This document shows positions 3,214 to 61,800 of a stretch of 64,000 nucleotides of DNA, one piece after another. A program made the position numbers and the translations under genes. Source of the DNA: Tribonema minus (taxonomy: Eukaryota; Sar; Xanthophyceae; Tribonematales; Tribonemataceae). Numbering within the stretch: the stretch's first letter is position 1; each line of letters begins with the position of its first letter. The notes under the pieces were generated by a model. It saw nothing but the letters and a program-made list of their open reading frames with translations. It did no database searches and was not told the origin of the DNA. The DNA is taken from NCBI GenBank assembly GCA_017506865.1, contig JAFCMP010000246.1, positions 186,001 through 250,000 on the forward strand, read 5' to 3'.

Positions 3214-6200
3214 CTACTGCGAGTCTGCCAACTTCAACTTGACGTAGCGCGGGTGCCCGCCCAGGTCCCGGAACCACTCGCACTCCTCAATGAGGCCCTG
3301 CCCCTGCCATTGCTCCATGAGCGGCGGATGCGAGGAATCGACTTCCAGCCAGATGTGCCGCAGGCCCCCCTCTGACGTGGGAAGCAGCAGGGAGGGGGCC
3401 TTGGTAACCACCTGCTCACGAAGGGGGGGGGGGGGGTGGAGAGGGAGGGGTGCTGTGAGGCGACTGGCTCCCTGATTGCAGAAAGCCTGCGCATACCTGC
3501 AGGTACAGCATATGCAGCTCGGGTCTCAAAAGAGGGAGAGTCACATGAGGAGCATGCCCATGTTACTGTCAAATGCTGAGCTTGTGCGCAGCGTGGAGTG
3601 CGTTTTGAAACATCGTGAGCAGCAGCTTTCACAGTGATACTGTATGAAGGCTCGTGCTTGGCACTAATGCATGGTGCAGCGGGCGGCAGCAAAAGGTCTT
3701 TGAGCGCGCGATGGCAGCAGCGCCTTTGACACCCTCGCAGATAATCCCACCCATACGCCTGACAATGTGACATACAATGCCTTGTAGGTGGGGGCTAGCT
3801 GCCCCTAATCATTGATGCTGTCTCAGAGCAGAGTGGAATAGACATGTTGCCTGAGTCCGCCAGGGCGGCGCCTCGCGCAAAGCTCCAACGAATCATATGC
3901 GAATATGCCGTGGCCGCAGGTCCGCGCACCGAGCCCCACACCTCCACCCCTAACCCTAACCCTACACATTGCTCACTGGCCCTGCCTTGTACGCCGTGAG
4001 CGTACTGCTGTTCCCTGTGCAGTGTACGCGATCATGTTGACGCCTACTCATGAGTCTACTCATGACTCTACCTGCATAGTCTGCCCTCCCCCCCTGCATC
4101 CCCTACAGGCGCCATCCAGTCCCCGCACCCCCTGACGTCTCTGTCCAGGCGTGGCGCCGGGACCTTCCCCTCTCTCTCTCTCTATGCAGGGTTGCTCCTC
4201 CATCAGACTCGCCGCAAACTGATGATGCATCACTCTGACGCAGCCACTCTACAACCTTCACGATGTCACATTCTTGCCGATTCAAATTGCGCGTAGCGCT
4301 GCTGCCCACCTCTCGCACGACCCCCAAGCCGTCCCCCGCGCCCCCGCACAGCGCCCCCCAGTCCTCAAACCCCCTGACATCCTCGTCCAGGCCCGCCATG
4401 TCGCGCTGCGGGATGTAGGGCGGATTGGAGACAATGAAGTGGAAGGCGCCGCCGGGGGGCGGCGGCTGCAGCGACGACGCTGGGGACAGGACGCAGGCGT
4501 AGCGATCGGCGACGCCCACCTGGAAACCGTCAAGAGCAGGGGCAGCGGGCGGGGGCGGCGATTGGTGGCTGAAGTGACGCAATGCAGCGTGCTGTGGCGC
4601 GGTGATTGGTGGTTGAAGTGATGCTCAGCAGCCCTGCTTTGTGATGGAAGGGGCGTCTGATTTTCTTTACCTGTTTCATTTGTGTTGCTTTCCGGGTGTC
4701 CGCCTTCTAGAAGTTAACTATTGAAGCAGTACAATGCAGTGCTCAGCGGTGGCAGCGGTCAGCGCGCACCTTCCTCGCGTTCTCCAGGGACAGCCGCACG
4801 GCGCCGGCGCTCACGTATCCGCTTTCTATAATTAAAACTCTGCAGAAGTACTTGTAAGCGTAGTACAACACAGCAGCAGCAATCAGCGCGCACCTTGCTG
4901 GCGTTCTCCAGGGACAGCCGCACGGCGTCCGCGCTGACGTCGCACGCCACGCACATCGCGCCGGGGAGCCTGTTGAGCAGCGCCAGCCCTATCGCGCCTG
5001 CACACACTCATATATTCAAAAAGCACAGCGCTCAGATATGGTTGAATCCACAGTGCTCAGCAATACATTGTGTTGAGCAGCGCCAGCCCTATCGCGCCTG
5101 CACGCAGTCATATGCAATGAGATTGAATGCACAGCGCTCAGCAATGATTGAATGCACAAGGCTCAGCAAAGGACAGTGCGGAGCCTTCGCTGACCCTATC
5201 GTGCCTGCACACACTCATGTGTAACGAGATTGGGACCACAGCGCTCAGCAACGGACAGCGCGGAGCCTTCGCTGACATTTGAGTTTAAGAGCGCTGGCGC
5301 TGGAGCAGCGGCGGACGACGGACGCTGTCCGTGTGCTTGGGTGCCGCCGACAGCAAAAAAGTGGCGCGGCAGACGTGCAGGGGCGTCACTCTGTACATAT
5401 CAGGTGGAGCATGTTTGAAGTTGCAGCAGCAAGAGCTTGTCGAACACTGATGACCAGCGCGCGCACACCAAAGCAGGCGACGCCGTTGAGAGGATGCGGA
5501 ATACGCAGAACCACGACATGCCGTTCAGCAAATGACAGTGGACCGTCAACTGATAGTGAAGCAGCCCGAGCGAAGGCCAATCGCGCCGTGGCGAACACGT
5601 GCAGCAAGTTACTGCGCACACCCTGGCTGGCTCTGAAACCCACAAGTTTGTGACATTCCGTGCCCTTCGCTGTGGTGTATTACAAATACTAGCATGTACA
5701 CGTACGTGTGAAAAACTGTGGGGGTGTAAGCTGCAGCGGCTCCGAGCGTGCGGGCGATCACGCGTTGCACAAGCGGATCCCTCAGTGCTCAACAGCAGCA
5801 GCAACACGCATCAACCGCGGGCGCAACGCACTGCAGCATTGCTCAACACTAGGTTCACTCTGGTGCTCGCCTGTGCCGGAGCCCACGTCCAGGAACCGCA
5901 GCGCGGTCCGCTCGCGTTCCGGGCACGTTCTCCGGAGCCAGTCCAGCACGCGCTCCACCAAATCCTCCGTCTCGGGGCGCGGTATGAGCACTGGGGGGCG
6001 CACGAGGAGCGCCAGGTCGTGCCAGTCCCACTCCCCCATGATGTACTGGCAGGGGGGGGGGGGGGGGGGAGGTATGTATGATGCAGCTGTAAGGGCACGC
6101 AGGGGGCACTTGTGCGGAACTGATGCGCAGGCACAAACCCTGTAGGCATGTGTAGAGTAGGCATGTAAAGCCCGGAGGACAGATGCATGGTGGCGAGGCA

Positions 6201-7083
6201 GGTGCGGAGTTTGACAGATGGATGACGAGAAACAGCAAATCATGCACAAAGACTAGGACCGCTGACACTCAGAACTCAGCGTGGTGTGCGTCCTGCATTA
6301 GGGTTGGCGTAGGATTAGCAGGTGATGTGGCAACTGTGCCCCGTAGTAGGCATCATCAAGGGTCATGACACGAGGCATGCACAATGCCGATAATGGCGTC
6401 CACCGGCGGTGGTGTGGCGTTGCGCACCACTCATGCAGTCATGCAGTGTGCAGTGTGAGTCAGCATGCTTATGGCAAACCTCGAGCAGACCGTCTACTGC
6501 AGCCTGCGCGTATCCAAACTGGCCATTGCATGCAGCGCTCGACCCCACAAACCCCCTGACGCACTCGACTGCGCCGTGACGCACGCAGAGAGCTCTACAA
6601 GACAGTGCGCAACACCTGCCCATGCGCGCAGCTGCTCTGTCGCTGACGCTGCAACTTGTCGCACATCTTGGGTGGTACCAGGACAGCAGTTTGATTACTC
6701 TGGTCTGACGCCTCTGCGCACCACTTGAAGTACACAACAGAGATTGACACGCTCTCATTTACGTCGCCCGGTAGTGCAGCGCTCAGCAATGAATAAGCAC
6801 GCACCTGCAGCGGCATGCGCGTCGCACGCAGCCTGCAGAGGCGCTCGAATTCGTGCCGCTGCTCCGGCGACAGCGCCGCCGGCTCCGCCCTGAGCCGTGC
6901 CTGCAGCAGCTCGCGCGCGCCCCTGTAGCCGGTGGCCTTCGCCAGCAGCTCCGCCGCGGATATTTCCGGCTCGATGACGCTGCGGCGCCAGGGGCGACGC
7001 GCATGCGCATGTGTGGTACTTGTGTTGGCACGGTGGTGCATTGAAAAGCGACTGGAGGACAGCAAGGGACTGCTGGCGCTCAC
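3214..7083 (-). CDS. HEMK1: HEMK1/MTQ1-type release-factor glutamine methyltransferase
   Basis: The enzyme uses S-adenosylmethionine to methylate the glutamine of the GGQ loop in organellar class-1 release factors. Exons on the minus strand: 7083-6805, 6045-5871, 4997-4894, 4519-4310 and 3411-3214, giving about 321 aa. All junctions keep phase. Exon 1 has the N-terminal helical domain and ends in ATRMPLQ. Exon 2 opens YIMGEWDW, then VLIPRPETEDLVE. Exons 2 and 3 together give the SAM-binding loop GSGTGAIGLALL. Exon 4 has the catalytic NPPYIP motif. Exon 5 gives LEVDSSHPPLMEQW and the GGHPRYVKLKL end seen in this family, then TAG. Intron 2 appears to use a GC donor (CAG|GCGAGC). The chosen start gives a Ser/Arg-rich leader that could be a mitochondrial or plastid transit peptide, but the true first exon may lie upstream. 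Exon 3 has partial copies on both sides. Confidence 0.9.
3951..3967. repeat. Interstitial TTAGGG-type tract (CCCTAA orientation)
   Basis: CCTAACCCTAACCCTA in the last intron of HEMK. Comparable short tracts occur near 19929, 20822, 21781, 25076, 25130, 27000, 39202, 51733, 53477 and 53510. Confidence 0.9.
4759..4820 (-). repeat. Echo of HEMK exon 3 donor end
   Basis: This is a diverged copy of the last ~45 nt of exon 3 plus its GTGCGCGCT donor, placed about 120 bp downstream in the next intron. It encodes the same RLSLENA run with changed residues after it, and keeps the donor. Confidence 0.8.
5071..5220 (-). repeat. Two echoes of HEMK exon 3 acceptor start
   Basis: Copies at about 5071-5113 and 5192-5220 repeat the acceptor and first bases of exon 3 (the AIGLALLN segment). 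Both lie upstream of the true exon in transcript order. They retain the CAG acceptor and the flanking word GCTCAGCA. Spacing is about 100-115 bp. Confidence 0.75.
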
Positions 7084-18792: not shown

Positions 18793-21700
18793 TCAAATGC
18801 TGCGCGTAAATGCCTCGCCCTTGGCCTTCGTCCCCGCGGCGACGGCGTGCAGCGTGCCGACCTGGCAGTCGTTAAGGTTGCAGCCGTCGCCGACGCCCGC
18901 GTTTGCGCAGATAACGCTGTTCTGGATGGTACACGCCTCGCCGATGCGCGCGCCCTCCATCACGACGCAGTTGTTGATCTTGCAGCGCGCGCCGATTGTG
19001 CAGCCGCGCCCTATAACACTTGATTTGCACGTCACCTTCTCGCCGACGGTGCAGCCCTCGCCGATGAGCGTCTGCAGATTGCATTGGAGAAGGATGGGGG
19101 GGGAAGGGGGGTCAATTACGCATGGATTATGCTTTGCAGTTTGCTGGCAGGGGCCCTGAGGGGGGGGGCTCGTGAATGGCAAAATTGTGCCCTATGACGG
19201 AAGACTTGCACGTCGCCTCCTCGCCGACGGTGCAGCCCTCGCCGATGAGCGGCTGCCAATTGCGTTGCAGAAGAATGGGGGGGGGGGGGGGGGAGGGGGG
19301 TCAACTCATGGGTGGTGCTCTGTGGTGTGCGAGGGCGCAGGATCTTTAGGTGGGCGAGATGACTCATGAATCGTGCTTTGTGGTTTGCCTAAATGGGGGG
19401 GGGAGATGGCGCATGGACGCGCTGTGCGTGGCTTGCTTGATGTGGGAGCAGGGGCGCGTGGGGTGGGGGGTGGGGGGGGACTCACAAATGGTGCTTTTTT
19501 TTGTTGTTGTGGGGTGGGGGCGGGCAATGATTCATGGGCGGTGCACAGCTCTTCGCGCATTCTGCCAGAGATGAATGGTGGCTGCGCAGAATGATTGTGT
19601 GGCTGCTGCTGAGTACAAAGTTGAAGATGGCAACTTCAAGGGCGAGCGCCGCTGCACGCCTGCGCGTCGCCGCGACGCACAAGCACCCCCACCATCAGTG
19701 GGCGCCGTCCGTATTTAGCGCGGCCGTGCATTGAGTGCGCAGCAGTGCTGTTGCGGGCACCGCACGCAACGCGTTCACACTACGCTTTTTAATTGGAGGT
19801 GCAGCCCTCGCTGTGCGCATCTGCGCCAGTGTGCACCGTGCGCGCGCACCTGCACCATGAGTCAGATACCGAAGGTAGGATGGCGGCATTGATAGATCCC
19901 TGCCGCAGTTGGTCGTTGGTCAAAATCTAGGGTTAGGTTTACGGCTAGGGTTAGGGCCCACACACCCTGCGACTATGCGGGCCTCCTTCGCCAGCGAAGC
20001 AAAGCGCCGCACCGTGTCTTCACACAGTTGCACAGTTAAACTCGTGTACTACCTCAAAACATTCGGCGACAAGGAGCAGGTTTTGCCCGCTGCTGGCAGT
20101 CGTCAGCCGCCTGCCCACCCACCCCCCCGCTGCGACCCCCCCTCTCACCTGATTCTTCCGGTTCAGCCCCTCGACGCGCCCCCCCCCCCTTGGCCTGCAG
20201 CTGCGCCTCCAGCAAAGCACCACACTTTGTCTTCACGCGATTGCACTTGTCCAGTGAAAATATACTTCTATACAATGAGAAACAGGTTGCGCGCCCCGGC
20301 AGTTTTCGGACGCCTGCCCCAGCCCCCTGAAACTTCACCTGATCCTTTCTGTTGAGCCCCTCGACGCGCCCCCTCCCCTTGGCCTGCAGCTGCGCCTCCA
20401 GCACGCCCTTCGTCAAACCTTCTGCAACAAGGAGCAGGTTTCGCCCGCTGCCAATCTCCGGCCCCACGACTACCGTCAAGTCTTCTGCAGTGTTCAGCTC
20501 GATGCGACCCCCCCTCTCACCTGGTCTTTTCTGTTCAGCCCCTCGACACGCCCCCCCCCCTTGGCCTGCAGCTGCGCCTCCAGCAGGTCTTTCGTCATGC
20601 CGCTGTACTGCGCGAGCGTGCGCGCCTGCCGGCAGTAGCCGCCGCCGTCCGCCGCCGTGCGCAGCACCACCGCACACACGCCGCCGCCGCCGTCGCCCGC
20701 CCCCGCTGCCGCAACACCCCCCGGTGCCCCCTTGGCAATGTTGAGCTTGTTTATCATGTCGTTGTAGTAGTCGGCGGCGACAGGAGCGGGTGCGCCGTGG
20801 CCTGCAGTGTGTTGCCGCAATGTTAGGGTTAGGGTTGGTGATGCCGCACTCTTGAAGTTGAGGGGTGCGGGGGCAGGGTGAGACGGGCGCCAGAGGGCCA
20901 CGCGATCTGATGTGTGGGGGTACACATGCACTTTAGCAGCGCTAACAAGCGGGTGCTGATGGTGGCGCAGTCTTGAAGTTGCCCGCTCCCAACTGCTGAG
21001 TGGCTGCATGGGATGCAGTCTTGAAGTTGCAGTTGAAGTAGTCAGCCGGCAGCTGCATGCATGCGCGCCTCCAAACAGGTGCGCGCATCGCGGCTGGTTG
21101 TCTACATCGTTTCCAAGCGGTCTTGCCGCACTTGCAGTTCTCCGTACGACAGCTTGCGGCAGCCGGCTGAATCCTTGCGGGACATGCCGGGAGTGTGCAG
21201 TCGGCGCAGCTGCGGATGGCATCTTGTACAGCGGTGCACTAGTGCGCTCTCTGGTGCGCGGGTAGCTGAGCGCTGCCGCCCCGTCTTCACCGAAGCCAGT
21301 CAATTACGCAGAACTCCTGACATCTCTATGCTTCAAAGTTAGGGTTGCAAGAAACATACTTCTATTTGGCCACACAAATACGGCATTTTGGGGCGTATTT
21401 GGCAACTAGGAATACGTCGTGAGCATACCTCAACATGAAAACATGCTGTGCGAAGGGCGCAATTGTGGGGCATGTGATGAATCTGCTTGATTCCGAGCAC
21501 ACAGTCCACCAGTCAAGGGGCAACTCAGAACTGAACTTCCAAAATACGCTTTTGTGCAACCCAACTCCAAAATAATATATACCCCAAGAAGTATGCCGCC
21601 GGCGCCATGATGCCGCCGCTCTCCTCTTCTCCACTGGCGACTGCGCATGACTCATGCTACTGCCAGCCGCGCTACTTAGGGTTAGCGTAAGAGGTAGCCT

Positions 21701-38500: not shown

Positions 38501-39841
38501 GCAATGAACGCTCATCTCTAGTTCCTGCCGGCGGAGACTTGACTGTTGCTCGTCATGTTCCTGTTGACCAAAGAGACGGGCGGTGGTGAGAGGTGTCATC
38601 TTGCGTGCGCCTGCGCTGGCGCTTTCCTTGTGCAAGCAACAGCAGCACCAGCGCATGACCCCATGCAGCAGTGCGGAGGATCTTCGGTCACGCCGCTTGA
38701 CCCGCTGACTCACGACGACGAGTTTGCCATGATGTCATTGTTGTCAGGGAGGCGGTGGCGCAGCACCGCAGGCAGAGGCTGCAGCAGCTGCAGGCGCAGT
38801 TCAACCGCTCCGGCGGCCGCGCGGGGGGGCAACAAGAGGGGACCAGCAGGACCAGGCAGCAGGTATGTATAGGTACACCTAACCCTTGCCGTACCTATGA
38901 GCATTATGGGAGGTGGAAGAGAAAGGACAGCTGAAGTCCATTGCATCATTTGCATTGCCTGAGGCGCCGATGACATTGCCCTTTGTACGTCAAGTGTACC
39001 TACCGTATCCTACATGGGCGCGTTTTGAAAGCGTGCACTTGGGGAGGGGACCAGCAGGACCAGGCAGCAGGTATGTATAGGTAGCGGACCCTGAGCACTG
39101 TGCGTTGAGAAAGGCAAAGAAGCCGACAGATCATTGCATTTGACACTTCCTTGCATTTCTGGCAGGACCAGGCAGCAGGTGTGTATGCTTGGGTAGCAGC
39201 CCCTAACCCTAACACTAACCATGGTTAATGAGGGATGTGGAAGGGGATAAGAAAGCTGAAGCCATTGCATGCTTTGCATTGCCTGAGGGGCTAATGACGC
39301 CGCCCTTTCGTACGTCAACTGTGGCTACCGCATCATAGGTACATGCGAGCGTTTCGGAAACATGCACTTGTGTGATTGAAACTGTGAGATGTCAGCAGCA
39401 CCTGCTGCTAGTGAGTGAAGACCTTGTTGGGACGGGCAGCAGTACCTTTCTGGCGGCTGTTGCTGATATCACCAGTGCCACACTCACGTATGCACTGCTG
39501 CACACTGTGCTGAGCTACATTGGCACAGCAGCACGACTGCAGCGCGAGTACCTCGGTGAGTCACCCACCGCCGCGCAGCAGCGCACCAGTAAAAGACCCT
39601 TCCAAACTGTCTACTTAGTGCATCTGACGCGCTACCCCCACTGCACTGCGACCGTGGCGGCGCAGCTTCTCATTCTGCCGAGCACTGACACACACAGCAC
39701 CGGCGCCGCGTCTTGCAGGTCGAGAGAGCGCTGCGCGATGCGCTCAGCCTCGGCGACGGCGACGACGGCGGCAGCGGCGGCAGCGGCGGCGCGTCCTCCG
39801 TCCCTGACGCCGACGTCATGGCGTTGCTCGCCGCACGCCGC

Positions 39842-39879
<38 letters not shown>

Positions 39880-41044: not shown

Positions 41045-41079
<35 letters not shown>

Positions 41080-44317: not shown

Positions 44318-47300
44318 TCAGCCCCTGTCGTCCCCCTCGGGCTGCAAGGAGCCCGACGCGAAGTCGAAGGTGTGCATCTTGAGCGCGGACGTGAAGCCCG
44401 CGCGCTGCTGCCGGCCCTCCGTCAGCCGCCGCCGCCATTCCTGCATGCACACGCGCAGAGGAACAGCGCGCGGAGCGAACCTGAGTGTGATCGCAGCCTT
44501 TAAATAGTGGAATATGCGCACCACGGAAGCGATCGGGGAGTGATGATTGAGGCGCGCTGCTGCCGGCCCTCCGTCAGCCGCCGCCGCCACTCCTGCGCAC
44601 ACGCGCGGAGGAACAGCGCGCGGAGCAAGTTTGAGTGTGATTACAGTTTCTGAGTAGGGTCTTGTGAAACATGTGCATGCATGGGATGCGGAGGAAACGA
44701 TTGGGGAGTGGAGATTGGTGCACCTACTCCTGAAGACACACAGGATGGGAGGAAGCATTGCATATGCTGATTGCAGCCAGTATTGCTGAACACGGGCACA
44801 ATGACGTGGAGGAAGGGTGCATTTTTGTTGTTGCTGCTGCTGCCGTCTCTCTGATGCTTGCACAGCTGCAAGGACAAAATAGAAATGGAATCGCGACAAG
44901 CGGTCGGTCTTCTGCAGGCGTGCGTGCTCAAGCGCTGAGCACAGACCCTCATCGCATGAGAAGCGTGATCGACACGGTACTTCAAAGTTGAAGCTGGGCA
45001 TCAGCCGGGAACAGCCCCAACTACCCCCCCCCCCCCCCCCTCCCATCAGCGGCCGCTAATGTGCCTCACTCAGTCGCGCAAACATGTGAACACACGAAAG
45101 TGCCGGTGAAGCACGTTGGTGAGAAGCAGCAGCCACGATTAATAGATATCCCTGGAAACAGGTAGACCAGAGCACCAAAGCGTCTGACGTGAAAGAGATG
45201 CAAACCATGATGGCAAAATTGATTCATCGTTTTGGAAAGTCAGTGCTCTTGCTTTGTGCGCTTTCACCAGACGCAGTGCAGCTGTGAGCGTTGTTTGGTG
45301 TTGATGCAGTTGTCAAGTACTTGGGGTGTCTGCACGCACCTGCGCCTGCGTGATGGCGACGTCCGCGCTGCTGGGGTCGAGCGCGCGCATGTCCAGCAGG
45401 CCAGTGACAGACAAAGTAGTCATCACTCGTAGACAAACGCTTCCGACCATTACGCGCGCACCTTCTTGGCTCCTTTCACCAAAGCTAGAGTTGAAGTGGA
45501 GTGTTGTGCTTCGAGAGATATTCAAGGATCAAGTGTTTGCGCGCACCTGCGCCTGTGTGATGGCGGCGTCCGCGCTGCTGGGGTTGAGCGCGCGCATGTC
45601 CAGCAGGCCGTTGCTGCCGCCCTGCCCCGTCTTGGCGACGCTGTATCCTCTGTGGTGTTGCCGCGGATCGGGGGCGCCGCGCAGTGGGAAAAGAAAGGCC
45701 AGGAGAGACAGGTTGAGACCCCCGCGTGTGTGACACGGCGGGTGAGCCATGCTCACAAAAAGCCTAGATGTATGCTGCATCGCGTCATCAAATGTGACAA
45801 CGAGAACATCACATTATGCGCATGGTGGCACAGAGAGAACTTGGGAACCCGTGCGCGAGGTGCCGCAGAGGGTGCCCATTGACGGTCTGGGGCCAACCGT
45901 GTCTTGCTTTCTATGCAGCACAGACATGCTTTGATGTTTGAAGTATACATCAAGTATAGTTCAATATACTTTGGGTACTATGTAGTTACCGCGTAGAGCG
46001 CGAAAAGCCCAGATGGTGGACGTCAAGCTCGCTACCAGAATCCACATGCGTCTTGTGACAGAACTGCAAGCGTCTCAACTTCAATTTGCTTCAGGGGAAG
46101 TACCAGTCTACAGTGGCAGTGCTCATGTATGCAGCACAGCGGACCCCACCTGCTGAGCCTGCTGGCCCTCTCCTGCTGCTTGGGCCCCGGCTTGGGCAGC
46201 GGCAGGGAGTCGCGCTTGGGCGGTGGCTTGCCCATCACCAGGCCGCCGCCGCCCGTGCCGCGCCGCCACGTGTCGGGCAAGCTGCAGGTGCACGCCGCCG
46301 ATTTATGTGCATGAGCAGCAGAAGTGTATGGGCGTTATGTGCATCATGATGCACACTTCAAGTGTGCACGTTGGAGAAGTGGTACCAACGCTTGAAGTGT
46401 GCATGTTTGAAGAAGTGGCACCAGGCCGCCGCCGCCCGTGCCGCGCCGCCACGTGTCGGGCAAGCTGCAGGTGAACAACGCCGCATCATGTAGAAGTACT
46501 TGAACATCTTCTGCTTTAGGGGCAGAAACGCTCGTTTGTGTACCACGTCGTAAAAGTATACAACACATATGCTCCTGTTGAACATCATATAGTTGAGCAT
46601 CCAGAAGGATACGGGAGTTGTGTGCACCGTGATGCACACTTCAAGTGTGCGCGTTGAGAAGTGGTGCCAACACTTCAAGTGTGCATGTTTGAAGAAGTGG
46701 CACCAGGCCGTCGCCCCCCGTGCTGCGCCACCACGTGTCGGGCAAGCTGCAGGTAAACGCCGCCGCATCGTGTACATCGCATCCACAAGTACACGGGCAT
46801 TGTTGTGCGCTGGTCGTGCGGACAAAACAGACTATCAATACAGCACCAGACTGTCCAACATCGCATCGTGCAGTGACGCTGTGAGCAGTGCTCTGTCACG
46901 CCACATGTCGCCGTGCTTCGATCCGATCCTCCTGCTTCGAAAGGTACGCAACACTCTAGGGTCACTCACATGTATGCTCCTGGGCCCGCGCCGCTGATCA
47001 TCACCATGCAAGAACGCCGTGATAAAGGCCTCGGCGGCGCCATGTGTCGCCATGCTTCGATGTGATGCTTCTGCTTTGCGATGTACTAAATACTCACGAG
47101 TCACTCACATGTATGCTCCCGGGCCGGCGCCACTGTCGTCGCGCTCGCCCCTGCCGCCGCCGCCGCCGTCGTTGGAGTAGGCGTCGACGGCGGTGCCGGC
47201 GCGCGGGTGGTGCAGCGGCGCTTGCAGGCGCTGCATGACGCGCTGGTCCTCTTCAAATGCAAACTGCAGCGGGGTAGTGGGGATGGAACGGGGGTTGCAA

Positions 47301-50300
47301 TGGGGGGTGTTGCACAGACGGTCAGCCTTGTGTCCCCGTGCAGATCTGCCCCCTCTCTGCATGTCAGCATTAGGGCTAGGGTAACAACTATTGTCGCAGG
47401 TACATGTACCTGCATCATCTCGGGCACGGTGCGGCGCCGCCGCTTGTTCGCCGGCACCGGGGCGCTGAGGTCCTCCGCCCCCTCCCCCTCCTCCTCCCCT
47501 CCTTCCTCCCCCTTGGTGGGTTCGGGGGGGGGCGGCCACAGGCGGTCCCAGCCGTCCAGCTGCTGCAGCTCCCAGGCCAGGATGGAGGGGTCGGATTCCT
47601 CCTCCCAGAGGGGGACGGGGGGTGGGGGCGGTGGCACGGGGGGGGGGGACGGTGGCCGCTGCTGCTGCTGCTGCTGCTGTGGTTGTTGGTGCTGCTGCTG
47701 CTGCGGCTGTTGCTGCTGGTGCTGCCCGTGGCAGCGCTCAGCCGAGTGGGCTCGCTCCTGCTCAAGGGCAGTGGTATTGGTGACATAAAGTGCTGAATCA
47801 GGATGCGGCAGGACGCTTGTTGTCTGCCGCGTGGTGTCTGGTGGCGTGCACGCAGGTCTGCATCTGCCGGTGCCAGTCCACGCACAAATAATAGCTCTTT
47901 GAGCATGGCACATGCGCCTCGGCCATGCGCGTACAATCACAAATAAGCGCACATGCAAGGAGAGGAGGGCCGGGGCGGCAGACCGCCCAAAGCACTTACT
48001 CAGAGGACCAGATCTGAAGTTGTGTCAGAGTCAGGGTGTGTCAGGGCTAGGGGAGCAGTAAGCTGTAGCGCTGGGTCAGGAGCACAGGGTTACTTACGCC
48101 CCTCTTGCAAACTTCAAACATGAACTTTGCGCACCTGCTCCTCGCCGCGCTCCTGCCGCGGCAGTGCTCCGAGCGACGCCGACCGCGCCATGCCGCGCCG
48201 CCCGGGCCGCGGCGCGCCGCCGCCGTCGGACGCGCCGCCGCCGCCGCCGCCGCCGCTGCTGCCGCTGCTCAGCGGGCGCAGTTTACTGGCGAGTGACGAG
48301 GCCGCGTCGCTGAGCAGCGCTGCGGCGGCGGCGGCAGCGCTCGGCGCGGGCGTGCCTGCGGCGGGGGGCGGGGCGGCGGTGGGGGGTGATGACAGGCTTG
48401 AGGCACGTGGGCGAGCGCCGTGGGGGGTGGGCGTGAGGGTATTGCGGCAGCGTACCGCAGTGACGGCGCGCAGGCAGGAGGCATGGGTGGCGGGCTGCTG
48501 CGGTCTGATAATGTTGAGGTTGCTGGCTTTCTTGTTGAGGTTCACGCACCAACTTGCCTCGCACTGAGAGCATGCCACTCATGCGCAGGCATAAGCAGCT
48601 GATGTGCCACAATTCCAAGACATGCACTCTTCGATTTTCATCACTCCGGAGGCTCCATCCAAAATCTTTGGCCACCACAGCAGCGCTAAGTGCGTCACGC
48701 CCGTACTCTTAGAGGCACTGGTGCATTCAAAAAGGTGCGGTTTCCACACTTCAACATTGCTGACGTGACATCACGAGCACCATTCAAGCTCACTGCAGTC
48801 GCAGCTGCAGCACACCCTGGACACTTCAAGTTGTAGAAGCGTAGAGTTCAACACTGCAGACGTGCCATCACGGAGACACCACTCACGCTCACTGCAGTCG
48901 CAGCTGCAGCTTACTGAGTACTTCAAGTTGTAAAAGCGTAGAGTTCAACATTGCAGACGTGCCATCGCGAGCACCACTCAACCTCACCGCAGTCGCAGCT
49001 GCAGTCGCCGGTGCTGGCGGTGCCCGCCTGCTGGCCACTTCAACTTGAAGAAGCATAGATTTCAACACTGCAGGCGTGCCATCACCAGCGCCACTGAAGC
49101 TCACCGCAAGCATACCTTTAGTGAATTACTTCAAGTTGCAGAAGCGTAGAGTTCAACACTACAGACGTGCCATCTCACGCTTACCGCAGTCGCAGCTGCA
49201 GTCGCTGGTGCTGGCGGTGCCCGCCTGCGTGCGCGGCGTGCCCAGGTCGGGGGCAGGCATGTACTTGTCGCGTGCCATGCGCACCAGCTTGTCCTCCTTG
49301 CCCTGGTACTTGCGCAGCAGGGCGCCGATCTGCCGGAAAAGGGGTATGGAGTGTTAGGGCTGGGGGCAAGTATACATGGGGGGTAGCTGCACCACGAAGC
49401 CAAATCAGGCGCGGGGATCAAAGTGGCATTGTCATGGGTGCAGGAGACAAAGCCCCTGCTTTCGCCCCACGACTAAATAAAACCCCATCTCTACCCAAAT
49501 ATTGACCGCAGTGCACATACGTACAGGCTCACACTGCCCGCTCATAGCGGTCTCATCTACTCACGCTTCAGGTCAGCTATTGCCACCTTCACATCAAGGG
49601 TTCATCAGGACATGAACTTGCAAACCGATACACAACAACGCAGACACCTCTTGAGAACCGCAGCAACCGCGCAACGGCACAGCACGATACCAACTCCATT
49701 CCTCCAAAGCTGACTTCAAAGTTCTACCCGCATCTCGACGCGCGCACCTTCCCCAGCTTGGTGGGCGCATACTGTGCATAGATGTCGGTGAGCTTTGCGT
49801 GCGCCTCGGCGACGTGCGGCTCCATCGGAGTGCTGCCGCCGCCGCCGCCGTCCGTCTCGGGCCGCGTGCACGCGTCGGCGGCGGCGCCGCCGCCGCCGCG
49901 GTACAGCCGCGCCTGTGCCTCGCGACGCTGCGTGGCCTCAAAGCTCGCCCTGCTTGGGCAATCAGCGGCAATGCACGCATGATGCATTCGATTTTACCAT
50001 TATGAATGATATCGTGGCCGTCAGCGAAGGGCAGGTCAAGTGCATGCTGGCTCACGAGGGCGGTGTCAAAGGTGTCGACGAAGGTGTCGGGTAGCGGTGA
50101 CGCCGGGTGGTACGAGCATTGCAGTTGTTGAGGTCTCGAGGCTTGCTGTGTGTGTACACAGGGCGCAATTGTGCGCGCAGAGGCAGCAATGCTCAGCAAT
50201 TTTAAAGTTGTGCTGATGCTGGACACTTGATTGTCTGCAGCAGCAGGTTTTTTTCAGTTGAACCGACGCTGCAGGGAGGGCTGTGAGCCAAGAGTAACTA

Positions 50301-53300
50301 ACGCACAGGTCTTGACCAGCCTCGAGCTGCTGCTGTCCAAGGCGAGGCCTTCTCTTCTCGCCTTTACTTATATGTGTCGAAGTTCATGCAGCCCGAACTG
50401 GCACTGGCAACGCATCTTGGCTATGCCGCCCCACAAACAGGCGCGACTCCATGCTCCTGATAGTCAGGCTTCAACGAGAGGTGACTCTCCACACTACGTC
50501 CGAGGCACGATGATGGCACGTCACAGGTGCCACTTCAAAGGACACTTCAACTAGATGTGACTCTCCACACTACTCGTGAAGCACGATTGACGGCACGTCA
50601 CAGGAACCACTCTCACCTGTCGGTCGGCTTGGCTTGCAGCACCGACAGCGATGACAGGACGACCTTTGACTGCGGGACATCGAGAGGTAGGGCCGAACGG
50701 ATGCCACAGCGTGAGCGGTTGTGCAATGCATTAGAGACATCTGAGCAAGTGAAACGGTATTCATCACGCCCGCATGACCACGCCGTCTCGAGCCGACCAA
50801 AGCTTCAGCACCTTTGCTCGCGTCAACTGCGCAAGCAGCGCCAGTGTGAGCGCCGAGGCGGGAGGGTGCGGAGCCCAATGGACTGGTGCTGTGGCTCCGT
50901 GCGTGCCTGTACAGTTGACGCCTACCCACGCCAGTCACTGCTATCGATGTGAAAGTGCGCTTCGCCGCAGCGTGACTTGCCGGATTTGAGGATTGGTGTC
51001 AGACGCACACGCAGTGACGCGCTGCCCTATGTATGCGCAAGCCCTACACCGATACCTCTGTACCCATACGAGTGAGCGCCTGGGTTTCGTCTATGCAACG
51101 CATCTTGGCACATGTACGACACTGCGGCAGCGGACAGCGGGTTGTGCGCCCAGGTGCTGTCGATGCAACGCATCTCGGCGTCTGTTCGGCGCGACGCACC
51201 TTGATGCTGGCGTCGAGCGGCGAGTCCGTCGCGAAGCTCGGCAGGTGGTTCACTTCAATCAGCCACGGCTTGAGCGCCTCGTCCACCATGAAGTCGAACC
51301 CGAGAACTTCTATACACCTCGAGCCCTCCACGGGGGGGAGGTCGCCCCCACCCTCCCCCCACGCCGGCCCCCTCTCCCCCCCCTCTCTGCAGCAGCTGCC
51401 GCTTTCGGAGCTGCCGGCGCTGCCCGTGCGCGGAGCGTCCGAACTTGAACTTGCTGCGCGGGGGGCGTCGGCGGCGGCGCTGCGCGCGTCCGCTGCCGGC
51501 GCGTCCACAACGAGCGCTGCAAAAAACGGTCATCCGTGGGGGCGTGCAGCGATAGGCGGGAGGGTGAGTACTGCACCGTGTGTGTACTGTGTCTGTACTG
51601 TACTGTGTGTGTACCGTGCTGTGGGACTACTGTGTGTGTACTGTGCTGTTGAGCACTGCAGCACGCAAGCTGTGCGCGCCAGCGGCACGATCGCCACTGC
51701 GGCTGTGCTGCGCGAGGGCAAGCGGTGGTGCTTAGGGTTAGGGTCAGACGGCAGGACGCGTTGCGGGGGCGTGTGGAGGGAGGGGCAACGTCCCAATGAC
51801 GCAGAGAGCTGCGCACGCGTACACGCCTCATTCACCCTCGGCAAATGTCATTCGCAGCGCGCCTGGACTGAGCGCTGACCTTGATAGGGGGTACGTATGT
51901 TCTCTTGCAATGTTCGCTTTCACATAAAATGGCCACGCGCCTCGGACCGCGCGCGCATGGTGAGAATGCAGCACCCCTTCCAGCTGGGCGCATGCGCGGC
52001 GCACGCGCGCGCGCGCTTGCACCGCGGCTCAAGCGCCCCCACTACGTGAATACGATACACATACACGGCGCACGCGGGTGTGCACTCACGCCGCGGCGCG
52101 TGGCTCTCGTACACGTCCGCGCCGAACGTCGCGCGGTACTCGCGGTGCAGCTGCGGCAGCACTGGCACGAGCGTCTTGACGGCGCACTGGCCCATGCGCC
52201 GCCACATGCGCCGCGCGCGCGCCTCGCCGTGCGTCTGCCCCACCCACTCGAGCAGCCACCTGCGGGAAAGGGGATGGCGGCGGGGGTTTGCGTGGCTGCG
52301 CGGGTGAGCGACGATGCATGACGAAAGTTTACCAACAAAAGGTGTACTCTTGATCGCCGCGCGCGCGCCTCGCCGTGCGTCTGCCCCACCCACTCCAGCA
52401 GCCACCTGCGCGCGCGGGGGGGGGGGGGGGGAGAGGGGGTTTGAGGCAGCGGCGCGCGGCGCGGGTGAGCGACGATGCATGACAAATATACCATAATGAA
52501 CTATGTACTCTTGATCAGTCTGCCGTGTACTCTTGATCAGAGCAGCCGACTGCGGGAGAATGGGGGGGTGGGGGCGGTGTGAGCAGCGGCGCCCGGCGCG
52601 GGTGAGCGACGCTGCATTGGGATATGGTGAAAAGGGCATGTGCTCTGAAGCAAACCGCTGTGTATTCTTGATCAGACCACGAGGTGTGAAAACGTATACC
52701 GGCTCCACTGATGGTGCGCCTGGGCGACCCACTCGCAGAGCTCTGCAGCGCAAGGGTCGTTGGTGGTCGCAGCGCAACATCGAGAGATGCTGAAGTTCAA
52801 CAGGTGACGCACCTTCACAAACAAAACGTGCTCGCTGCGCACGGTCTCCATTCACGGCGAACCACGACCCAAACCGTTATACATGGAAACGGATCAAAAG
52901 ATCGTAGAGGTCTAGGTGACGAGGTGCGGTTAGGCGTAAATGTATATATACATATAGAAGTATCACATATGCGCACGCGCAGCTGCGCCGCGCCATCGTC
53001 AACCGGTGACGCACCGCAGCGAGCGCTTGCTGCCCGTGTCGTCGCGCTCCGCGTCCGCGTTCGCAACGAAGTTGTCGCTGCGGCGGTTGATGGCGTAGTT
53101 GGTGAGGTGCATGCAGCGGTCGCCCATGTTGGCGGCGGCGGGGCGCACGTACGCGCTTGTGCAGAGGCGTGCAAGGCCGTCGCGAAATGCGTACACGCGC
53201 AGCGGCCGTATCGACGTCACCAGCACGTACACCTGTGGGCACAGGGTCAGCGTGCGTGCGTCGTCAGCAGCATTGGAAGAGTTGTGTGCTCATCGCGGTC

Positions 53301-55258
53301 AGCAGATTGTTGGGTTCAAGGTGATGGCAATGATTGGATTTCAGTTACGAGTAGAGGCGCGCGAGGCCGTCGCGGAATGCGTGCACGCGCAGCGGCTGTA
53401 TCGACGTCACCAGCACGTAGACCTGCGCAGCATCGGCCGGCAGCGGCAGTCAAAGTTGGCACAACAATACGGGTCAGGGTTAGGGTGAGGGTTGAGGTTC
53501 ACAACTAGGGTTAGAGGTGCACAGGCGCGCGAGGCCATCGCAAAACGCATACATGCAGTGGCCGTATCGACGTCACCAGCACGTAGACCTGCACAGTGGC
53601 GGTGAGCAGCGGCGGAGGCATTGCCGATCATCAGAACTTTGCACAACGCTACGGGTAGGGTTGGGGCTACGGCTAGGTGTGGGGTTCACAAGCAGGATTG
53701 AAGGTGCACAGATGCACAAAGCGGACATGCTCAGCACATAGAGACCTGTGGGCACGCAGCGGTCAGCATTCAGAGGTGGTGCTTATCAACAGGGTCCAAA
53801 CAATATCACCTTCAAGCCTCAGGACGAGTTTCACGGTCAGGATCAGGGTTCGCAGTCAGGCTACGGTGTGGGTTTGCCCTTCATTTCTTTAGCGCTACCC
53901 TTGTGCGCCAGCTCAATTTCTGTCACATAGCTGCGATTGGGCAATGATGCTGCAGCTGCTGAGCGTTGTGGCAGAGACGTTTGGGCCAGCTGCGACCGCT
54001 CCTAGCCTGAATTTGAGTTCTATGTGTAGATGGCTTCAGCTAGGGTAAGGTTCAAGATCTGTATGTGCGAAAACGGCACCGCATGGTGCGCGTGCGGACG
54101 CACCCGCAAGTCGAACTTGTAGCCGTCGATGAGCAGCGGCCGCCGCACGTACAGCTGCACCACCTGTGACGACGCGGGGTGCGCAGAGGTATGGGTATGT
54201 ATCAATCATCCTCATCTCATGTGAATGTAATGTGTACAAGGCGTATGGGCACATGTGAATGGCGTACAAGGATCATGGGTGTGCGTACACAACTCCAAGT
54301 GTTGACTTGGTACCTGTCAATCCGTGTCGACTCACGCTCATGCACGACAGCGTGCGCCTGCATCGCGTCAGCCTGCTGCAAGCGCGTGGCGCCTCGACCA
54401 GGGTACACAACTGCGGCAAGTACAGGGGGGCACAGCGTAGGCGGGCCGCGCAACCGCGCTCGCTGGCCGCACCTTGCTGGCCGCGTTAATTAGACTGAGT
54501 GACGCTCCACCACAACACATGCGGCACCGCAGTCCGCACCATGCACGCATGCCAAGGCCCGCGCTTCTGCTGCACATGTCACATACACTCCTATCAGGCA
54601 CACCAACGTGAGGGCACTGCTTCAGATAGAGCAGCAGCGCTCAGCCCCCCTCCCCCCCCCCCCCCCTTCCCCTGCCTCGCCTCGCTCAGAGTCCTCCCCT
54701 CCCCTCCCCTCCCCCCTCCCTTCGCCACACGCTCACCCCCCCCCCGCCCGTCCCTCAGCTTCTCCCCGCTCAGCCCCCGCCCCGTTCACCTGCCTCTTCC
54801 CACACAGAGCCCCCTCCCTTCCCCCCCCCCCGGCCACACGCTCAGCACCCCCCCCCCCTCCCCCGTACAGTCCTGCCCCCCCCGCCCCCCTTCCCGGGCG
54901 CTCACCTGGCTGTCCATGGACAGCAGGCGGTCGTCGAGCTCCTGCGTCAGGTAGATGCCCTTGCCCTGGCAGCCGGCGTCGGGCTTGACGATGAGCGTGC
55001 GCGCGCTGCGCCCTGCGGCGTCGAACTCACTGCGCAGCGCGCACGCCTCCGACGGCAGCACCCACGTGCGTGGGTAGAAGCGGTAGTCGAGCGGGAACGC
55101 GCGCCGCATGCGGTCCAGCGCCTGCGCCATGCGCGCCTTGCGCGCGACGCCGGCCATGCCGGGGAAGTGGTTGACGCGCTGCCACGGCGCGAGCTCGCGC
55201 AGGCGCTCGCCGATCGCCGCGACGTCGACCCAGTGCACGTTTGCGCGGGGCTGCTCGC
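44318..55258 (-). CDS. Tubulin polyglutamylase of the TTLL family (TTLL6/13-like), N-terminus not found
   Basis: The enzyme adds glutamate side chains to tubulin, mainly in axonemes. Minus-strand exons: 55258-54906, 54163-54104, 53232-53015, 52259 to about 52092, about 51317-51200, 49949-49748, 49329-49185, 48355-48135, 47760-47410, 47263-47109, 46281-46150, 45613-45547, 44440-44318 (TGA). Phases agree except that one small exon is missing between 51200 and 49949. The ATP-grasp core is clear: WQRVNHFPGMAGVARKA, FYPRTWVLPSE, LIVKPDAGCQGKGIYLTQEL, VVQLYVRRPLLIDGYKFDLR, YVLVTSIRPLRVYAFRDGLA, CMHLTNYAINRRSDNF, CIEVLGFDFMVD, and the metal-binding KPWLIEVNHLPSF. The C-terminal half is polyQ/Pro-rich with a Lys/Arg patch (NKRRRRTVPEMMQ). 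Intron 4 fits only with a GC donor (CG|GCGTGA). Six exons besides the first have echoes. The start exon should lie between 55.3 and 57.2 kb but was not recognised. Confidence 0.9.
44545..44612 (-). repeat. Echo of the last TTLL exon acceptor start
   Basis: About 60 nt repeating the acceptor (GTGTGCGCAG) and first codons of the final exon (WRRRLTEGRQQRA), roughly 150 bp upstream of the true exon. The upstream intron piece (GCTCCGCGCGCTGTTCCTC) is part of the unit. Confidence 0.88.
45345..45415 (-). repeat. Echo of TTLL penultimate exon with donor
   Basis: It codes LLDMRALDPSSADVAITQAQ, against LLDMRALNPSSADAAITQAQ in the true exon 45613-45547. The GTGCGT donor is kept, the CAG acceptor is lost. 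It lies about 200 bp downstream of the true exon. Confidence 0.88.
46420..46765 (-). repeat. Two echoes of TTLL exon 11 acceptor start
   Basis: Copies at about 46421-46475 and 46703-46757 repeat CTGCAG|C then LPDTWRRGTGGGGLV (one copy WWRSTGGDGLV). They lie upstream of the true exon 46281-46150. Between them the intron text (CACTTCAAGTGTGCAYGTT, GAAGTGGTRCCA) is also repeated several times, so the whole unit is a tandem array. Confidence 0.88.
46950..47090 (-). repeat. Echoes of TTLL exon 10 donor end
   Basis: The block at about 46963-47005 repeats the end of exon 10 (GGCCCAGGAGCATACAT|GTGAGTGACC) with its donor, downstream of the true end at 47109. The surrounding intron (CATGTCGCCATGCTTCGAT..., near 46905 and 47042) is duplicated as well. 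Confidence 0.8.
48785..49105 (-). repeat. Array of four echoes of TTLL exon 7 donor end
   Basis: Units at about 48785-48815, 48885-48912, 48975-49035 and 49090-49105 repeat the end of exon 7 (CTGCAGCTGCGACTGCGGT) and its donor context. Each is followed by GTTCAACACTGCAGACGTGC and CTTCAAGTTGTAGAAGCG. Period is about 95-110 bp. The true exon ends at 49185. ACTTCAA words are built into each unit. Confidence 0.88.
52300..52620 (-). repeat. Echo of TTLL exon 4 acceptor start plus repeated intron blocks
   Basis: At about 52353-52412 the acceptor and first ~48 nt of exon 4 (WLLEWVGQTHGEARA) recur, with the CAG acceptor kept and a C-run polypyrimidine tract (52417-52430) in front. The intron block GGGTGAGCGACGATGCATGA occurs at about 52302, 52464 and, diverged, 52599. 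The true exon starts at 52259. Confidence 0.88.
53340..53600 (-). repeat. Two echoes of TTLL exon 3 acceptor start
   Basis: Copies at about 53350-53425 and 53522-53593 repeat CAG|GT then YVLVTSIQPLRVHAFRDGLA (the farther one is frameshifted after the first 17 codons). Both keep the acceptor and lie upstream of the true exon start at 53232, about 170-180 bp apart. A short piece near 53745 may be a third. TTAGGG-like tracts lie between them. Confidence 0.88.
54640..54900 (-). promoter_or_regulatory. G-run tract following a TTLL donor
   Basis: About 260 bp that is almost only G and A on the transcribed strand, with many runs of four or more G, starting right after the donor of exon 55258-54906. 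G-runs next to donors can act as splicing enhancers or fold as G-quadruplexes. That role here is inference from position and composition. Confidence 0.4.
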
Positions 55259-55344
55259 CTGCGCCTGCAGCTGTGCGCACGCACGGGAGAGGGTCACAAT
55301 GGTAGCCTGTCGGTTGTTGAAGTGAAGTTGAGGTTGGGCAGCAA

Positions 55345-55835
55345 GCGTTGCGTAATGTGAGCGCTGCCACGGCGCGAGCTCGCGCAGGCGCTCGCCGATC
55401 GCCGCGACGTCGACCCAGTGCACGTTCGTGCGCGGCTGCTGGTCGCCTGCGCCTGCAGCTGTGCGCACGCACGGGAGAGGGTCATAATGTCAGTCTGTCG
55501 AGTGTTGAATTGAAGTTGAGGCTGGTCAGCAAGCGTTGCGTAATGTGAGCGCTGCCACGGCGCGAGCTCGCGCAGGCGCTCGCCGATCTCTGCGACGTCG
55601 ACCCAGTGCACGTTCGCGCGGGGCTGGTCGCCTGCGCCTGCAGTTGTGTGCGCGCACGCGATAAGGTTCATAAAATATTTGCATGCCGGCCGTTGGAGTG
55701 ACGTTGAGGTTGGGCAGCAGGCGTTCCGTAATGTGAGGCAGCTGACGCGCCGCGCCGTTCGCCGCGACGTCGACCGCGTTCACGTTTGCGCAAAGCGCCT
55801 CTCCCAATGCGCCTGCGTGCCTGCAGAGGTGGGTC
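55345..55835 (-). repeat. Three echoes of the first recognised TTLL exon
   Basis: Units at about 55360-55460, 55547-55645 and a decayed one at 55745-55830 repeat the intron polypyrimidine region, the GCAGGCGCAG acceptor and the first ~80 nt of the exon (NVHWVDVAAIGERLRELAPW). Spacing is about 187, 187 and 173 bp. Each copy breaks off after WQR and runs into CTCACATTACG...CTTCAACTTCA. The frames of the first two echoes stay open. Confidence 0.92.
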
Positions 55836-59132: not shown

Positions 59133-59180
<48 letters not shown>

Positions 59181-61408
59181 ACGGCATCGGCGACGGCGGC
59201 GGCGACGGTGGCGGCGGCAGCGTCAGCAGCAGCGGCAGTGGCAGCGGAGGTAGCGGAGGCGGCAGCGACAGGGCAGCAGCGCTGCGCGGCACGGCGCTCT
59301 GCCTGAGCATCTGCGCGGGCGTGCAGGCGCTGATCGGCGCGCCGTTCCTGCTGACGCACCCCGTGTCATACGTGCGCCGCGCGTTCGACTTTTCGCGCGT
59401 GTTCGAGCACCGCTACACGGTGAACTTGAAGTTCCTGAACGAGCGCGCCTTCGTGTCGCGCGCACTGTCGGCGGCGCTGCTGGCGGCGATGCTGTGCACG
59501 CTGGCGGCATTCGCGGTCAAGTGGACGCGCGCGGCAGCGGCCTCTGCGCGACGGTGAGCTCAAATCACTGATAGTAGGCGGCGGAAGTGCGCTCAGCCTG
59601 ACTCGTGTGAAACACGGCACAGCAGATGGTAGTATTGTGAGCGGTGCAGCTGACCGCGTCTCTCTATGCGCTGGTCACCCACTGCAGTACCGCGGCACAT
59701 GGGCATGGCTGAACCTGGCCCCAAGCGGCGTCTGTACGAGATAGCGCGCGTGATTCCATGAGAATGAAAAGAGAGAAGCTACCGACGCCGCCTCAACCGC
59801 CTGCCGCCAGAGCCTGCCGAAGATAGATCGCAGGGCAGCAAGGCGCCGCACGCCATAACGGCCTGGTTCACTGCAGGTGGCGCGCACGTGGCTGCAGGCG
59901 GCTGGCACGCTAACGCGGCAGAAGGCAGGATTTGTGCTGGATGCCAGCGAGCTCAGAAACCTGGGGCTTTGCGCGCTGCGAAGCCTGTCGTCAGCGCGCT
60001 GTATGCGAGTTCCGCTCCCAGCGCAACCACATACTTGTAGAAGTAGTGAGGGTGCTTGCTGCAGACGCGCGCTGCGCCGGTGCCGCTGCCGGTGTACATA
60101 GATGTGGCTGCTCAGCGTGCCATCGTGCAGCGTCTGATGTGCAGGGCAGCGGAAGTTCGAGCTGCGGTGCCCCCACCGCATTTGAGGTTGCAACAATTCC
60201 CATCAGAGAGCTGGATTCTTGCAATTACGGCATTGTTGCGTTGCACGTAGCGACCTTGTCTTGTGCGCGTGGGTGCGTCACCGCACTTTGCGAGCATTAA
60301 AATACAACTTCAAGTACATGAATGGCAACTTCAAGTGCAGGCACACAGCGCGCTCGGCGCCCGCCGCAAACATGATTGCAAACATGATCTACGTGATGCG
60401 ATACGCATGACTCATTACTCACAAGTGACTTGTCGTTACCGGCTGCAGGTGTCCGAAGCCGCGGGCGCTGTCGCCGCAGTACGTGCTGCGGACGCTGCTC
60501 GTGTCCAACTTCATCGGCGTCGTCTTCGCGCGCAGCATGCACTACCAGTTTTACGCGTGGTACTTCCACAGGTGACGCCCCGTCGCGAAGCTCCCCCGTC
60601 TTGCCTGACACGAAGCACATACTTCAAAGTAGTTTGAATGCAATTTGAGAGGCAGCGCCCAGAACGCAGCAGGCTTTAAAAACGTCTAGAAGGGAAAAGG
60701 TGTGGCCTCTCTTGAGCGTGCATGTGCCACACGGTCTGCTGTTATACACGCCAAGGCCTATATAGCAACAATGTGTGTAAATGTATGTACGTAAACTTTG
60801 AAGTATGCATACAAGGAGAGGGTGCACACTCCCTGAGGTCTGGTGTTGTATCAGTGCAAGGCTCCTCTCTCATGGACCTGCCTATACTTCTCTTTTTAAA
60901 GCATTGTTCACTTTCTTCATTGTGAAGCATCATGCTGCCGCTGCTGCTGGTGGTCCTGCTGTGCCGCCGCTGCCGCTGCTGATGCCACGGACAGCAAACA
61001 CGCAGGCGGCAACGTGTGGTGCTCGTGGCCAATGAACTCACCTTGGCACCCCATCGCATGTCGCTCACATGCCAAGATGATCAGGAGCAACCCCTCCCTT
61101 GCTTCCCCAACAGGCACCCAACCCCCCCCCCCTCCCCCCCCCGCGCCCCTGCCACTCCCCGCAGCCTGCCCCTGCTGCTGTGGACGACCCAACTGCCGAC
61201 AGCGGCGCGCCTGCTGCTGCTCGCTGCCATCGAGCTCGCCTTCAACGTCTACCCGTCGACGCCGGCGTCGAGCGCGCTGCTGCAGGCGGCGCACCTGGTG
61301 CTGCTGGCCGCGCTGTGGGCCGCGCCCGTGCCCGTCGTGTGGGTCCCCGTTGGCGACGCCGCTGGTGCTGGCGCTGCTGCTGCTGCTGCTGCTGCGAAGA
61401 GCGAGTGA
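57213..61408 (+). CDS. ALG3: ALG3 alpha-1,3-mannosyltransferase (Dol-P-Man dependent)
   Basis: This ER membrane enzyme (family GT58) adds the first Dol-P-Man-derived mannose to Man5GlcNAc2-PP-dolichol in N-glycan assembly. Exons 57213-57378, 58647-59553, 60449-60571 and 61165-61408 (TGA) keep phase and give about 479 aa. Exon 1 carries the first membrane span ([20 protein letters not shown]). The exon 1-2 junction rebuilds [16 protein letters not shown]. Further family blocks are [75 protein letters not shown] and [15 protein letters not shown] Gly/Ser insertion of about 45 residues (near 59131-59270) sits in a loop after the KMNVLL span and explains the extra length over animal ALG3. The protein ends AAAAKSE. 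The stop-containing end is repeated downstream. Confidence 0.95.
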
Positions 61409-61800
61409 CGTGCGGCTCAGCGTGGGTCCCCGGCGGTGCCGCCGCTGCTGCTGCTGGCGCCGGCGCCGCCGCTGCCGCCGCTGCCGCCGCCGCTGCTGCT
61501 GCTGCTGCTGCGAAGCGCGAGTGACGTGCGGCTCAGCGTGAGTCCCCGCTGGTGCTGACGCCGCCGACGCTGCCGCCGCTGCTGCTGTTGCTGCTGCTGC
61601 GAAGCGTGAGTGACTTGTGGCTCAGCGTGGGTTGCCGCTGGGGCTGCCACTGCTGCCGCCGCCCCTGCCGGTGCCGCTGCTGCTGCTGCTGCTGCTGCGA
61701 AGCGCGAGTGCCGCGCGGCTCAGCGTGGGTCCCCGCTGGCGCTGCCGCCGCTGCCACCGCCGCTGCTGCTGCGAAGCGCAAGGGACGTGTGGTCGAACGT
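61336..61800 (+). repeat. Tandem repeats of the ALG3 C-terminus with stop codon
   Basis: The last ~80 nt of the coding region (TGGGTCCCCGTTGGCG, GCT/GCC alanine run, GCGAAGAGCGAGTGACGTG, CGGCTCAGCG) recur as about four further units ending near 61526, 61610, 61711 and 61790. Most keep GCGAAGCGYGAGTGA, so each has its own stop. Units are 75-115 bp and differ mainly in alanine-codon number. Confidence 0.9.

Follow-up and report, generated by a model that had tools for sequence, protein, structure and literature searches.

The DNA analysed here, referred to as the window, is a stretch of 64,000 nucleotides of the Tribonema minus genome (C246:186001-250000, in an assembly of 158.18 Mb and 554 contigs), which carries genes for HemK/PrmC, H2A.Z, eIF2B-gamma, a coiled-coil protein, TTLL and ALG3, together with a further gene at 31-33 kb. 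At approximately 19 exon-intron junctions in this window, the edge of the exon and its splice site are found again, as a copy that is mostly partial, in the adjoining intron. An earlier note on this DNA had claimed about 17 such junctions, and our count is close to it: a copy was scored at 15 of the 76 junctions called with high confidence by a gene finder that had the window as its training set (score of at least 42, as defined below), and four further junctions, which were not high-confidence to the gene finder, were added by eye, namely the acceptor and the donor of eIF2B-gamma exon 5 (24268-24369), donor 38862 and acceptor 44440.

In the gene for HemK/PrmC, which lies on the minus strand, the exon at 4894-4997 is copied at both of its edges: its donor (4876..4940) recurs downstream at 4752-4816, and its acceptor and the upstream copies occupy 4971..5251 at an offset of 100 bp. 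In the same gene, a GC-AG intron (5859-5873, donor CAG|GCGAGC) is seemingly required, as judged by eye, to link DVGSGTG to AIGLAL. In eIF2B-gamma, also on the minus strand, the acceptor of the last exon at 19071 (19008..19292) has an upstream copy at 19189-19292, offset by 181 bp, donor 20521 (20128..20597) has two downstream copies (20335-20415 and 20128-20214), and donor 22230 (22035..22273) is copied at 22040-22089 and 22099-22128. Exon 5, with its junctions set by eye, lies within 24125..24800, where a near-whole copy without the acceptor is present at 24125-24221 and acceptor-side copies are present at 24536-24598 and 24742-24800. Copies also accompany donor 25863 (25459..25917, copy at 25459-25541), donor 27293 (27124..27317, copy at 27124-27166) and acceptor 27445 (27364..27855, copies at 27582-27672 and 27769-27855). 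A 29-bp minisatellite at 25597-25867 extends to donor 25863 and repeats donor-like sequence.

The coiled-coil gene, on the plus strand, has a copy of donor 38862 (38836..39370, junction set by eye) at 39044-39083 that is identical to 38836-38875 at 40 of 40 positions, and next to it a longer intron pair, 38846-39041/39162-39370. Within the TTLL region, on the minus strand, the last exon's acceptor 44440 (44400..44641, again set by eye) is copied at 44552-44641, donor 45547 (45326..45609) at 45326-45402, acceptor 46281 (46236..46774) at 46419-46491 and 46701-46765, and donor 47109 (46899..47135) at 46899-46996, and donor 49185 (48750..49228) is accompanied by a tandem array in the next intron. 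Farther along, TTLL acceptor 52259 (52209..52617) has an upstream copy offset by 146 bp, acceptor 53232 (53159..53711) is copied at 53353-53425 and 53519-53591, and acceptor 55270 (55176..55816) has three copies spaced by 185, 188 and 172 bp. At least five genes had been claimed to carry junction copies; four do (HemK, eIF2B-gamma, the coiled-coil gene and TTLL), and the total becomes five only when the segment of the TTLL region at 44-50 kb is counted as a gene of its own. The array in ALG3 (61339-61800), which had also been taken for a junction copy, turns out to be a tandem array of ~90-116 bp units on the plus strand (61339..61772) that lies over the stop codon (61406-61408) and the 3' flank and includes no splice junction.

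We surveyed eight stretches of the genome, the window and seven others (B0-B6), which total 344 kb and hold 301 high-confidence junctions. For each junction, a query of 20 bp of intron and 40 bp of exon was aligned to 600 bp of the adjoining intron, and alignments scoring at least 42 were taken as matches; a stricter cut-off of at least 60 was also applied. A copy was found at 42 of the 301 junctions, compared with none in 6020 mismatched pairings of junction queries with introns of other stretches, and 39 of the 301 junctions keep a copy when other exons are masked in the target. Every one of the 42 best alignments spans at least 2 bp of intron and at least 10 bp of exon, and in a wider set of 79 copies, 60 span at least 5 bp of intron and at least 10 bp of exon. 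Two of the 42 cases (both in B3, at an offset of 375) represent a single whole-exon tandem duplication with its mate in the neighbouring exon. Junction copies are thereby confirmed as real and are not confined to the window. Copies were found at 0 of 19 junctions in B0, 4 of 26 in B1, 16 of 37 in B2, 3 of 43 in B3, 4 of 48 in B4 and 15 of 76 in the window, and none of the 52 junctions in B5 and B6 was matched at a score of at least 42. Five of the eight stretches, on five contigs, thus contribute copies, and three (B0, B5 and B6) have none at 71 junctions; therefore, the duplication load differs between regions. Overall, at approximately one junction in seven in the sampled regions, the splice site has a copy close by that decays independently of it.

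The junction copies behave as local tandem duplications. Local repeat pairs with offsets of 30-2000 bp comprise 162 direct and 7 inverted pairs, and 100 of the 162 direct pairs have an offset of 50-224 bp. Perfect or near-perfect tandem units exist (300 bp at 100%, 136 bp at 98% and 375 bp at 98% identity), and in several pairs the copies adjoin, with a unit as long as the offset (B0 29631, B6 16378, B3 2515). The self-comparison of the window yielded 52 local direct repeat pairs no more than 5 kb apart, with no local pair in that list for H2A.Z (16-17.5 kb) or for the gene at 31-33 kb. Homology at the offset of the exon part continues into the deeper intron (from 20 to at most 120 bp away) at 30 of 44 junctions at p<0.01 and at 33 of 44 at p<0.05; the remaining junctions could be partial copies. 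In 13 pairs chosen for a length within 10 bp of the offset, length minus offset ranges from -10 to +7 and is -1 to +2 in seven; such little overlap at the break in these near-complete pairs is at most compatible with end filling at breaks.

Introns that contain a copy (25 of 124) have a median length of 1098 bp, compared with 532 bp for those without (p=0.0002), and among introns of at least 300 bp the corresponding lengths are 1123 and 800 bp (p=0.025). Part of this difference is expected, because a copy adds length and because longer introns offer more room for copies. The proposal of the earlier note, that introns lengthen by tandem duplications across their own junctions and leave putative decoy sites, is borne out by the greater length of the copy-bearing introns and by the deeper-intron homology, and such duplication provides a simple route for introns to lengthen. 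The rule of direction it described was also observed: acceptor copies precede the true exon and donor copies follow it, and therefore the true acceptor-donor pair is the closest one. This rule is a matter of geometry and purifying selection, as the whole original exon stays in place and splicing removes the copy along with the intron; it is forced for any copy in an adjoining intron and carries no information of its own.

We consider it probable, at odds of roughly three in four, that these are neutral tandem copies crossing exon edges, recognisable through the conservation of the exon. According to this explanation, local tandem duplication would be frequent, with units mostly of 50-224 bp. 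A duplication entirely within an exon would usually be purged, and one that crosses a boundary between coding and noncoding sequence may be survived, with the outer copy falling in an intron or 3' flank and the original exon and splice site left whole. The intronic copy would then decay neutrally. Its exon half would stay recognisable longest, given that purifying selection on the exon lets one side alone diverge, and the intron half would diverge on both sides; partial exon edges with their splice site would thus be found near real junctions because exon halves outlast intron halves. At the molecular level, the most likely cause is that staggered breaks or paired nicks are filled in and their ends joined. 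The spliceosome presumably retains the original sites, perhaps since the true acceptor-donor pair is always closest.

The decay of the copies is in keeping with this scheme. In the 42 best copies (one of them misaligned), mean identity is 0.859 on the exon side and 0.741 on the intron side, which is close to the 1:2 ratio of divergence expected if selection holds one exon partner and neither intron partner, and exon-side identity ranges from 0.72 to 1.00 in 41 of the 42, the other being the misaligned one. Differences between exon and copy amount to 0.090, 0.081 and 0.161 at codon positions 1, 2 and 3 across the 79 copies; positions 1 and 2 fit change in the copy alone, and position 3 fits change in the copy combined with silent substitution in the exon. 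An indel interrupts the exon-like part in 15 of the 79 copies. Of the 60 copies that cross the junction, 48 retain the splice dinucleotide, and comparison dinucleotides are kept at 1088 of 1357 non-CpG exon positions (80.2%) and at 100 of 116 exon positions of the same type (86%). Dinucleotide retention near exon rates and the pattern by codon position therefore argue against strong selection on the copies, which appear from sequence comparison to decay neutrally, with no sign of being kept or removed. We also considered an excess retention of decoy splice sites, which 37 of the 40 alignable best-scoring copies had suggested; the full set (48 of 60) did not uphold it. A comparison of copies with each other (exon parts 0.81, intron parts 0.56, random 0.30) was not used, as many intron pairs fell below random and were misplaced.

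Are junctions then special, or only the place where duplications are most easily seen? The excess of junction-spanning duplications over duplications elsewhere, which the earlier note's view implied, is present in the eight stretches, and is largely one of differential visibility. At a score of at least 60, 11.6% of junction windows (35 of 301) are duplicated, compared with 3.4% of windows in the intron interior (n=5910), 1.6% of those more than 1 kb from exons (n=6168) and 2.1% of those in the exon interior (n=192). We examined 25 events with a junction copy scoring at least 60 and found that the copy can be retrieved from the adjoining 60 bp of intron-only sequence in just 11 (at least 42) or 4 (at least 60). 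When the deep-intron rates are corrected for this visibility, they rise to ~10% (4.5%/0.44) and ~14% (2.3%/0.16), with 10.3% observed at junctions. Boundaries at stop codons, which have no splice site, carry copies as well (4 of 18, two of the four being the ALG3 array, one of these via a probably false minus-strand exon), and start boundaries have copies at 0 of 8. Intron halves are thus recoverable in fewer than half of the events and copies occur at stop-codon boundaries; therefore, visibility appears to explain most of the junction preference.

The foremost alternative is that exon edges attract duplication, for instance through transcription, splicing-linked R-loops or nucleosome-phased replication, and that junctions are true hot spots. 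With exons masked and at a score of at least 60, copies occur at 31 of 301 junctions and in 20 of 888 deep-intron windows, a ratio of 4.57 (confidence interval 2.65-9.05), as expected if edges are targeted. Several results bearing on this question weigh against neutral copies made visible by the exon. A simulation with equal rates per site gives a junction-to-intron ratio of only 0.55-1.09, compared with the observed 2.2 (at least 42) to 3.4 (at least 60), and the visibility effect must therefore be stronger than in that model; at a score of at least 42, duplication is more frequent in intron-only windows adjoining junctions than in deep intron (21 of 267 versus 40 of 888, 1.75-fold, p=0.04, bootstrap confidence interval 1.15-2.63); and the calibration of visibility rests on 25 events. 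To these are added the concentration of 16 of the 42 copies in one 40-kb stretch (B2) beside three stretches with none (26 of 264 junctions when B2 is left out), deep-intron halves whose divergence seems to be more than double that of the exon half, beyond what the explanation accounts for, a third-position bias (dN/dS-like 0.47) that would be compatible, too, with weakly constrained copies, and the fact that outside the window junctions are known from ab initio models alone.

Counted in favour of neutral duplication are alignments of the window to eIF2B-gamma and TTLL6 chains, which continue across several copy-bearing junctions. Exons joined by hand leave HemK and TTLL open throughout, with the TTLL segment at 44-50 kb ending at its stop, and they contain internal stops in eIF2B-gamma (three) and H2A.Z (one), as does the displayed frame of ALG3 (one). 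Against targeting, the intron-only windows by junctions do not differ from deep intron at the stricter cut-off (7 of 267 versus 20 of 888, 1.2-fold, Fisher p=0.65), the same events can be seen in the intron in only a minority of cases, as described above, and boundaries without a splice site carry copies too. A residual near-exon enrichment of up to ~1.8-fold is suggested at one threshold and absent at the other. We regard targeted junctions as unlikely, and hold a similarly low expectation for the broader proposition in which edge-directed duplication linked to transcription or chromatin acts atop visibility and the spliceosome tolerates full-strength decoys by joining the nearest pair across the exon. 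If duplication were directed to edges, introns would lengthen mainly from their own ends.

A very improbable alternative is that the copies are functional, as alternative or poison exons or as selected decoys. Intact copies do score like true sites: copied acceptors score 6.37 compared with 6.05 for the true ones, and 16 of 28 equal or surpass their true site; copied donors score 5.44 compared with 5.99, and 14 of 20 do so; altogether, 30 of the 48 copies whose dinucleotide is intact match or exceed the score of the original. If the copied site were used with its true partner, then of the 59 scored copies (48 with an intact dinucleotide, one junction being scored at a time) 45 are predicted to introduce a stop, in the manner of a poison exon, 8 to shift the frame and 6 to leave it open; the third-position bias is compatible with weak constraint. 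However, the splice dinucleotides have been lost at about the neutral rate, the differences by codon position are those predicted for a free copy beside a constrained exon, and the indels in the exon-like part speak against function as well.

Even less probable is that the copies are footprints of intron creation through duplication of an exon segment containing AGGT. Two publications (PMC3443670, PMC4974935) treat tandem duplication as a real origin of introns; however, the donor and the acceptor of one and the same intron resemble each other at a score of at least 24 in only 1 of 124 cases (0.8%, compared with 0.4% for other introns) and in none at 30 or more, and the copies hold intron together with exon across a junction that already existed. 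An assembly artefact is hardly credible, for although tandem repeats are prone to assembly error, the copies diverge gradually, follow the codon-position pattern and occur on five contigs.

A number of further features were noted in the window and the other sampled stretches. The gene at 31.0-33.1 kb is flanked by two direct copies of a ~1.2-kb repeat (29487-30728 and 34062-35431, with pieces 71-78% identical), and its long frame is broken by one TAG (32317-32319) with the same frame open on either side, which might reflect a pseudogene, a short intron or read-through. The long frames at 11960-14350 and 39689-42937 have no Pfam match. Over-represented 8-mers in the window and B0-B6 include AGGGTTAG, at ~44 times the expected count, and AACTTCAA/TTGAAGTT, at ~17 times. 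Short telomere-like TTAGGG pieces are scattered through the same stretches, some of them, by eye, in introns, and TTAGGG repeats terminate at least two contigs (C2 and C3). Exons of light-harvesting proteins give 92 matches to Pfam PF00504 in the genome, and two of these (C1:1236836-1237498 and C79:1260591-1261277) have a second, overlapping match on the same strand with stops nearby, in the manner of an echo. AACCCT telomere repeats are reported for Haematococcus lacustris, and as known in Chlamydomonadales (PMC7617258); taken by themselves, the telomere repeats and the light-harvesting genes might suggest a chlamydomonadalean green alga.

For the question of splice-site choice by the spliceosome, these copies amount to an experiment set up by nature, as the true exon is the shortest pairing amid copies of graded age, and in such genomes exon-like debris can mislead gene prediction. 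None of the papers listed by our literature searches describes junction copies as a frequent feature of a green alga.

Introner elements form a dispersed family of intronic sequences with splice sites, and the copies described here resemble them in being intronic and in carrying such sites. Dispersal of the introner type was not detected among the sampled introns, where no junction query matched an intron of another stretch at a score of at least 42 (0 of 6020), a comparison that did not include a whole-genome family search. Whole-exon duplication, as in mutually exclusive exons, is represented by one clear case (B3, 375 bp) and one near-whole case (eIF2B-gamma exon 5); unlike these, the other copies in the window are partial, and a stop or frameshift is predicted in 53 of 59 copies.

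A close parallel in form is the RdRp gene of potato, in which, according to Ma, Lan and Niu (2016, PMC4974935), a tandem duplication crossed an intron-exon boundary, was spliced and became a new intron. There, as here, the duplicated unit is the 3' end of an intron and the 5' start of an exon with their splice signals; unlike that new intron, the copies in Tribonema lie within the introns of several genes and are decaying. Small tandem duplications formed by end filling at staggered breaks are a known class of mutation (PMC8355091), which our copies resemble in their direct, adjacent units, although many units here are longer than those of the class as introduced there (<100 bp). The Rogers model of intron gain by AGGT tandem duplication (reviewed in PMC3443670) likewise couples tandem duplication in genes to splice sites; in contrast to the gain it describes, the unit here already includes the junction, and homology between an intron's own donor and acceptor is absent (1 of 124). 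Set beside these systems, the junction copies are a true, well-behaved feature of parts of this genome, built of known ingredients.

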